Positions 13,667 to 15,123 of a DNA stretch of 64,000 bases are shown here, one piece after another. Within the stretch, counting starts at the first letter, position 1, and every line of letters begins with the position of its first letter. The notes under the pieces were generated by a model that saw nothing but the letters and a program-made list of their open reading frames with translations, made no database searches and was not told the origin of the DNA. The position numbers were made by a program, and so were the translations under genes. Source of the DNA: Sandaracinus amylolyticus (GTDB lineage: Bacteria > Myxococcota_A > Polyangia > Polyangiales > Sandaracinaceae); contig NZ_CP011125.1 of the NCBI RefSeq assembly GCF_000737325.1, positions 3,658,001 through 3,722,000 on the forward strand, given 5' to 3'.

Positions 13667-14884
13667 TCACGACGCGCGCTCCGGTCGCACGAGCGCCTCG
13701 CGCAGGTACGCGCGCGCCGCATCGATCGCCATCACGCGCTGCCCCTTGCTCTCGGGGAGGAGGCGCGATCGCAGCGCGACCTCGCCGCGCTCGGCCTCGC
13801 GCGCGCCGACGATCGCGACGTACGGCACGCCGCGCTCGTGCGCCTCCGCGATGCGCCGCGCGAGCGACTCCTCGCGCGCGTCGATCGACACGCGCGCTCC
13901 GTCGCGCTCGAGCTCGCGTGCCAGCGCGCGCGCGTTCTCGTGCTGCGCGCCCGACACCGGCACCACCACGACCTGCTCCGGCGCGAGCCACGCGGGCAGC
14001 GACGCGCCGTGCTGCTCGAGCAGGATCCCGAGGAAGCGCTCGAGGCTCCCGTAGAGCGCGCGATGCAGCATCACGACCGGCTGCTTCTCACCGCGCGCGT
14101 CCACGTAGCGCAGGTCGAAGCGCACCGGCATCACGAGGTCCATCTGGATCGTCCCGCACTGCCAGAGACGCCCGGCGCGATCACGGAGCGCGATCTCGAT
14201 CTTCGGCCCGTAGAACGCGCCCGCGCCCTCCTGCACGCGGTGCTTCTCGCCACGTCGGTCGAGCGCGCGCGCGAGCAGCGCCTCGGCGCGATCCCACACC
14301 ACGTCGTCGCCGGCACGATCCTCGGGCCGCAGCGAGAGCGCGACGTCGAGCTCGTGGAACCCGAACTGCGCGTAGAACGGCCGCAGCCCCTCGAGGAAGC
14401 GCACCACCTCGTCCTCGGCCTGCGCCTCCTCGCAGAACACGTGACCGTCGTCCTGCGAGAACTGCCTGAGCCGCATGAGCCCGTGCAGCGCGCCGCTCGC
14501 CTCGTCGCGATGCACCACGCCGAGCTCGGCGAGACGGACCGGCAGATCGCGATACGAGGGCGCCATCCGCTTCACGATCTGCACGTGCCCGGGGCAGCTG
14601 ACGGGCTTGAGCGCGGCCTCGAGCTCGTCGTCCTGGATGCGCATCATTCCTTCGGCGAAGTGCTTCCAGTGCCCGCTCGCTTCCCACATCGGCCTTCGCA
14701 TCACCTGCGGCGAGCGCACTTCCTCGTAGCCCTCGCGCCGCACCTGCGCGCGCTGCGCGTCCTCGAGCGCGCGGTACATCGCGAGACCGCGCGGGTGCCA
14801 GAACACCATGCCGGGCGCTTCCTCCTGGAAGTGCAAGAGGCCCAGCCTCCGCGCGATCGCGCGGTGATCACTGTCGTCGAGCAT
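13667..14884 (-). CDS. thrS: Threonyl-tRNA synthetase, short form
   Basis: The 405-residue protein covers only the class II catalytic core and the anticodon-binding domain. It lacks the TGS and N2 editing domains of the usual ~640-residue enzyme. Motif 2 is visible in ELGVVHRDEASGALHGLMRLRQFSQDD. The zinc ligands are present: Cys of KPVSCPGH, His of QDDGHVF and His of VVMLHRALYGS. The anticodon domain begins near 305 (LAPEQVVVVPVSGAQHENA). It should charge tRNA-Thr but cannot clear Ser-tRNA-Thr itself. The 5' leader (14885-15115) encodes a Thr-rich peptide and alternative hairpins, which implies control by threonyl-tRNA supply. Confidence 0.93.
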   Translation of the reverse strand: MLDDSDHRAIARRLGLLHFQEEAPGMVFWHPRGLAMYRALEDAQRAQVRREGYEEVRSPQVMRRPMWEASGHWKHFAEGMMRIQDDELEAALKPVSCPGHVQIVKRMAPSYRDLPVRLAELGVVHRDEASGALHGLMRLRQFSQDDGHVFCEEAQAEDEVVRFLEGLRPFYAQFGFHELDVALSLRPEDRAGDDVVWDRAEALLARALDRRGEKHRVQEGAGAFYGPKIEIALRDRAGRLWQCGTIQMDLVMPVRFDLRYVDARGEKQPVVMLHRALYGSLERFLGILLEQHGASLPAWLAPEQVVVVPVSGAQHENARALARELERDGARVSIDAREESLARRIAEAHERGVPYVAIVGAREAERGEVALRSRLLPESKGQRVMAIDAARAYLREALVRPERAS

Positions 14885-14944
14885 CGTCGTTCTCCTTCGG
14901 TTCGGTCAGGAGCCCGAGCGCGCCGGATCGATGGACCACACCGT

Positions 14945-15038
14945 CGACCCGTCGCGTCGGGCGGGTCGTCGGTTCGATCGTGGATGTCGCGTCGTTCGTT
15001 CGTCTACGCGCGCACGATCACCGACCCGCCTCGCGGGT
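14945..15038 (-). promoter_or_regulatory. Putative threonine attenuator upstream of thrS
   Basis: Four segments of the leader RNA can pair in exclusive ways. Segment 1 (15033-15038, at the end of the Thr run) pairs with segment 2 (15024-15029), 6 bp with a 3-nt loop. Segment 2 (15022-15030) instead pairs with segment 3 (14960-14968), 9 bp without mismatch. Segment 3 (14962-14968) pairs with segment 4 (14945-14951), 7 bp with a 10-nt loop. A ribosome stalled on the Thr codons would cover segment 1, free segment 2 to hold segment 3, and so prevent the 3:4 hairpin. This is the layout of a classical amino-acid attenuator. Segment 4 is not followed by a U-run, so the end mechanism is uncertain. 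Confidence 0.7.
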
Positions 15039-15077
15039 GGTGGTGGTCGTGGTGGTGCGCGCGAACGCGAGCGGCAT
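15018..15077 (-). CDS. thrS leader peptide, seven consecutive Thr codons
   Basis: A 20-codon frame from ATG (15077) to TGA (15018) encodes MPLAFARTTTTTTTREAGR. Seven threonine codons in a row (six ACC, one ACG) lie just upstream of a threonyl-tRNA synthetase gene. The frame contains the first two pairing segments of the attenuator. No Shine-Dalgarno sequence is seen, and the predicted transcription start is only a few nt before the ATG, so the message may be leaderless. Confidence 0.8.
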   Translation of the reverse strand: MPLAFARTTTTTTTREAGR

Positions 15078-15087
15078 GACGAAGCTC

Positions 15088-15115
15088 AGTATGCCGAGCG
15101 CGCGCGGCGACGCAA
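15088..15115 (-). promoter_or_regulatory. Putative promoter of the thrS leader
   Basis: TTGCGT (15110-15115) and CATACT (15088-15093) are separated by 16 nt on the minus strand. They lie in the short gap after the stop of the upstream gene at 15124. A start about 7 nt downstream would fall 3-5 nt before the leader peptide ATG. Confidence 0.5.
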
Positions 15116-15123
15116 ACACGCGC

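Follow-up and report, generated by a model that had tools for sequence, protein, structure and literature searches.

A predicted threonine-sensing attenuator ahead of an auxiliary, editing-less threonyl-tRNA synthetase gene in Sandaracinus amylolyticus and its relatives in three phyla

Introduction

Control of gene expression by a translated leader peptide is well characterized for thrL and hisL of E. coli and for the leaderless trpL of Sinorhizobium meliloti, whose mRNA starts at its own ATG (PMC7298713). In these systems, as in the locus described here, stall codons are followed by RNA segments in which a 2:3 pairing competes with a 3:4 pairing, but the genes under control form biosynthetic operons, whereas here the gene encodes a synthetase. 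Leader peptides placed before synthetase genes have also been described: the histidine leader of the Bacillus hisS/hisZ paralogues (PMC2965389) is comparable in position, although it belongs to Firmicutes, responds to a different amino acid and is unrelated in sequence.

In function, the closest precedent comes from Streptomyces coelicolor, whose auxiliary TrpRS1 gene is under transcriptional attenuation mediated by the ribosome (Vecchione and Sello 2010, as cited in PMC4787780), the auxiliary TrpRS1 of Streptomyces being a drug-resistant enzyme (PMC9437257). The likeness lies in a second, auxiliary synthetase gene attenuated via its own amino acid. The differences are tryptophan and a drug-resistant enzyme on that side, against threonine, other phyla and an editing-less threonyl-tRNA synthetase (ThrRS) on this one; moreover, the present module occurs in three phyla and ahead of several target genes. 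For Streptomyces lividans, a leaderless thrL preceding thrS has been put forward, with two threonine codons (MKRVRPFLETTPGFVPAR) and unclear termination (PMC8079986). According to the available text of that paper, it shares with the present locus a leaderless threonine leader before a threonine-tRNA ligase gene, and differs in having only two threonine codons, in being a proposal without comparative evidence and in lying apparently outside the short ThrRS clade; it is a weak precedent. Finally, the duplicated ThrRS T2 of Anabaena (PMC4787780) is likewise a second, conditionally expressed and editing-poor ThrRS, but it is about the size of T1, keeps a degenerate editing domain and is induced by low zinc via Zur, whereas the present enzyme is truncated, with a leader that suggests a response to Thr-tRNA.

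In view of TrpRS1, S. lividans thrL and S. meliloti trpL, the kind of switch is already known. The initial annotation of this DNA had considered a threonine leader for thrS in this lineage to be new; this holds only in part, given S. lividans thrL and the attenuation of TrpRS1. Neither this particular attenuator nor its link to the editing-less ThrRS clade or its wider set of targets turned up in the literature searched, and an older prediction of thrS attenuation in these groups may exist.

Results

The synthetase gene downstream of the leader

The window is the whole stretch of 64,000 nucleotides analysed (contig NZ_CP011125.1, positions 3,658,001 to 3,722,000), and the features of the locus are collected in Table 1. 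The synthetase encoded in the window has 405 aa and aligns to the equivalog model for thrS beginning at position 170, with domain matches only to the catalytic core and the anticodon-binding domain. A full-length thrS is also present on the same contig (5318026-5319970 region), the window gene being a second synthetase besides this housekeeping copy. Because the protein lacks TGS and editing domains and a full-length ThrRS exists in the same genome, the target of the leader is assigned as an auxiliary, editing-less ThrRS. The gene is thus a ThrRS gene, as initially annotated, and a short paralogue instead of the housekeeping thrS. The latter was rejected as a target of such a leader, since what immediately precedes it is a tRNA-Val gene and no threonine leader; its product starts with MTTMGTTTAR.

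In a tree obtained with a quick method and midpoint rooting, the short ThrRSs (52) group together as a single clade apart from the 86 full-length enzymes (SH-aLRT 99). The YGPK motif of full-length ThrRS is kept in all 52, and the residue after its lysine is leucine in most of them. The residue following Tyr462 of ThrRS, Gly463, has been linked to resistance (PMC11252418). Resistance of the obafluorin type via this residue is unsupported for the short enzymes, all 52 having YGPK, with glycine as in ordinary ThrRS.

Table 1. Features of the leader region and of the synthetase gene (window coordinates)
Feature	Position	Strand	Remarks
Promoter-like TTTGCG-N17-CATACT	15088..15116	-	-10 ends 10 nt before the leader ATG
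Leader peptide ORF, MPLAFARTTTTTTTREAGR, ATG to TGA	15018..15077	-	frame kept in 34/34 protein-first short-thrS loci
Seven consecutive Thr codons (ACC ACC ACG ACC ACC ACC ACC), putative ribosome stall site, segment 1	15036..15056	-	
Segment 2, GGCGGGTCGG, putative antiterminator 5' strand	15021..15030	-	overlaps the end of the leader ORF
Segment 3, CCGACGACCCGCC, partner of segment 2 (antiterminator) or segment 4 (terminator-like hairpin)	14960..14972	-	
Segment 4, 3' arm of terminator-like hairpin	14941..14954	-	tail without U-run in the window
Segment 5, anti-Shine-Dalgarno strand CTCCT	14908..14912	-	
Segment 6, thrS Shine-Dalgarno AAGGAG	14892..14897	-	
Auxiliary short ThrRS, reduced to catalytic core and anticodon-binding domain, lacking TGS and editing domains	13667..14884	-	domain matches; full-length paralogue elsewhere

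The leader peptide and its conservation

The ORF with seven threonine codons that had been proposed on the minus strand is confirmed by reading the sequence: from the ATG it continues with CCG CTC GCG TTC GCG CGC, enters the threonine run and reaches the TGA after CGC GAG GCG GGT CGG. The distance from run to stop is 15 nt, and from stop to the thrS start 133 nt. When the 300-nt region ahead of the window thrS was dinucleotide-shuffled 3000 times, a short ORF with at least six threonines in eight codons never arose; when the same strict test was applied to 32 related loci, 25 of the real sequences passed, against 0 of 3200 shuffles. Since runs of seven ACN codons exist at about 25 separate sites of this 10.3-Mb genome, mostly within ACGACC hexamer repeats, the run alone is weak evidence, and the case is carried by its conservation ahead of orthologues rather than by the run itself.

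For this comparison, 34 loci, some of them near-identical, were gathered by protein similarity alone from the relatives of the window, a Myxococcota sample (379 genomes, 12 of them with a short ThrRS), genome contigs and plasmids. A leader with a threonine-codon run precedes the short ThrRS gene in all 34 (Myxococcota, Holophagaceae and two Burkholderiaceae) and in 43 of the 43 short-ThrRS genes of a Burkholderiaceae sample, against only two T4 short ORFs upstream of 83 full-length thrS controls; the leader is co-inherited with the short enzyme. At least four consecutive threonines are found in 32 of the 34 leaders, the remaining two reading TTTRTTT and TTTATQTTT. Across 32 leaders there are 5-10 threonines per leader, and their codons vary synonymously (126 ACC, 57 ACG, 24 ACT and 0 ACA). 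The run lies mostly 30-42 nt from the stop, and the stop 84-147 nt from thrS. Apart from the start, the threonine run and the RNA segments, the leaders have little in common, the flanking sequence having diverged. The initial annotation had suggested such a comparison of related upstream regions, and had named loss of the frame or of the run, or neutral variation of the run with ATG and stop not conserved, as the outcome that would speak against a leader; what is found is a conserved frame and position, with the ATG or GTG, the stop, the threonine run and the distance all kept.

The two exceptions among the controls, a myxobacterium (L026) and a Lysobacterales MAG (L067), carry full-length thrS genes with four-threonine leaders of their own (MSLPLPSFTTTTSPAR and MKTTTTN) and their own U-run terminators, and probably acquired this type of control independently.

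Competing RNA pairings

Just after the threonine codons, segment 2 (GGCGGG) is able to pair with segment 3 (CCCGCC), which is otherwise free for segment 4. In an alignment of 28 attenuators, the unguided RNAalifold consensus was exactly GGCGGG:CCCGCC, i.e. the 2:3 pairing. For this pairing, 94.6% of the alignment cells pair and the covariation exceeds that of all 500 shuffles and of every slid register, with the same outcome for the competing 3:4 hairpin, paired in 88.8% of the alignment cells; both are conserved with compensatory changes. Moreover, the energy of the 2:3 duplex has a mean z of -2.5 against dinucleotide shuffles, and segment 2 prefers its own segment 3 over those of other species (p=5e-5 with permuted partners, a test that corrects only in part for sequence relatedness). 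The whole-leader fold in the window is only mildly stabler than shuffles (z -1.35). The hallmarks of an attenuator are present, namely an ORF with a threonine run between promoter and gene, a terminator-like hairpin, and an antiterminator that shares one arm with it and overlaps the end of the leader. The conserved leader and the conserved, competing 2:3 and 3:4 pairings support the ribosome-mediated attenuation put forward in the initial annotation.

Promoter position and start of the leader mRNA

In 78 of 86 loci, 5-10 nt separate the end of the best -10 box from the leader start codon, and a Shine-Dalgarno-like motif precedes the leader in only 4 of the 86. Because of this short distance and of the missing Shine-Dalgarno in most loci, the leader mRNA is probably leaderless or nearly so. 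In the window, the -35 box is a weak one (TTTGCG).

Discussion

Proposed mechanism and alternative explanations

Judging from sequence and its comparison, the elements ahead of the short thrS very probably constitute a ribosome-mediated attenuator which senses charged tRNA-Thr and controls the auxiliary, editing-less ThrRS. Transcription would start at or just upstream of the leader ATG. With plentiful Thr-tRNA, the ribosome would reach the TGA and cover segment 2, leaving segment 3 to pair with segment 4, and transcription would stop; the thrS Shine-Dalgarno would, in this state, be masked by its own hairpin. With scarce Thr-tRNA, the ribosome would stall within the seven threonine codons, segment 2 would pair with segment 3, the 3:4 hairpin would be precluded and thrS would be read. 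Since the same switch precedes its relatives in three phyla, the spare ThrRS is probably turned on when charged tRNA-Thr is low.

The loci differ at the end of the 3:4 hairpin: U-runs follow it in Burkholderia, where they are strong (GCCCCGCCGGAAACGGACGGGGCTTTTTT), and in Nannocystis, where they are short, but are absent in the window and several relatives. Intrinsic termination is for this reason uncertain in the window, where Rho-dependent or translational control could take its place. In the translational version, the ribosome on the leader would set the masking of the thrS Shine-Dalgarno (5:6) through a relay of 2:3, 3:4, 4:5 and 5:6 pairings, with little termination in this lineage. Besides the missing U-runs, this agrees with the masking duplex, stronger than shuffles at z < -1 in 16 of 24 loci (mean z -1.67; window z -1.24), and with a 4:5 pairing that is better between own than between permuted partners (p=0.003), although segment 5 had been picked for matching the Shine-Dalgarno, and similarity within lineages inflates the test. 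The U-runs of Burkholderia and Nannocystis argue against it, and so does equilibrium folding, in which no clean opening of the Shine-Dalgarno was seen in the stalled state; that 4:5 pairing opens the thrS Shine-Dalgarno is only suggested. We hold this version to be rather unlikely.

The remaining explanations dispense with a sensing leader altogether. The abundance of seven-ACN sites in the genome could suggest a low-complexity repeat of the ACGACC type, open in the threonine frame by accident, but its frame, stop and position would not then be conserved in three phyla with third-base variation among ACC, ACG and ACT and with codon-sized interruptions; together with the blank result in 3200 shuffles, this conservation rules chance out for practical purposes. 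Leader-independent control, by an operator like that of the autoregulatory E. coli ThrRS or by a T-box, has in its favour that such mechanisms govern thrS in other lineages, and is nevertheless very improbable here, neither element accounting for the run of threonine codons. In E. coli-type autoregulation the N-terminal domains of ThrRS take part in operator binding, and these are absent from the short enzyme. Furthermore, no Rfam model, the T-box covariance model included, matched the thrS region of the window or 11 related loci at E up to 1, and a T-box or other Rfam element was rejected on this ground.

Possible role

The locus is a comparatively well-supported case of a threonine-sensing leader peptide controlling a ThrRS. 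If switched on by low Thr-tRNA, an editing-less ThrRS may provide high-output backup capacity, shield the cell from ThrRS inhibitors or generate serine-for-threonine errors. On a broader and tentative view, which we consider possible but less likely than not, the threonine-leader module would define a stress regulon responding to uncharged tRNA-Thr. Its members would be the editing-less ThrRS, passed on with the leader as one unit in three phyla, and, for Burkholderiaceae, three further products: the isochorismatase-family hydrolase, the MFS transporter and the ABM-like protein. Such a regulon could give inducible protection from ThrRS inhibitors or relax the proofreading of Ser-tRNA-Thr in a controlled way under starvation. 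As the switch is tied to a clade of ThrRS devoid of proofreading, two questions become testable: why bacteria retain an error-prone spare ThrRS that would be induced at falling Thr-tRNA levels, and whether a wider response in Burkholderiaceae (hydrolase, transporter) obeys this signal too.

Distribution and other target genes

A covariance model of the attenuator, R1, has also been gained, which tells these attenuators from background: in 17 test genomes and records, known copies scored at least about 55 bits and the rest 39 or less. With R1, 3 copies were found in 297 Acidobacteriota genomes, all with short thrS, and 106 copies in 92 of 398 Burkholderiaceae genomes. In the same Burkholderiaceae sample, a separate protein search gave 43 short ThrRS genes, and an R1 match lies directly upstream of each of them. 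The Gammaproteobacteria class sample gave 0 matches in 274 genomes, a blank result that carries no weight as absence.

In one of the three Acidobacteriota genomes with short-thrS copies, a Holophagaceae (L167:1486-1620), a weaker R1 match corresponds to a threonine leader (MKSFPEISTTTTTTTRDRRAGPS) with a GC hairpin and a U-run before an aspartokinase (thrA-like) gene, an independent match on threonine metabolism by a model trained on thrS.

The other Burkholderiaceae copies that were inspected lie upstream of genes for an isochorismatase-family hydrolase (PF00857), for an MFS transporter (PF07690), for an ABM-like protein or for a full-length ThrRS. The hydrolase arrangement is found in many genomes (L197, L202, L203, L206, L208, L222 and others), and the full-length ThrRS in one (L225). 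The MFS transporter that follows the attenuator in L177, L178 and L180 begins with a remnant resembling the first 20 residues of short ThrRS, which suggests that its gene acquired the switch through a deletion; the attenuator persists in L181 and L183 without an intact target gene. The 110-aa protein of the antibiotic biosynthesis monooxygenase type (ABM-like) in L205, L207 and L237 was recognized by eye, not by profile. Also by eye, a LuxR-like regulator, a 261-aa protein and a fatty-acid-desaturase-like protein were seen 3' of the short thrS in two Burkholderiaceae (L245 and L246), where the cluster may be biosynthetic.
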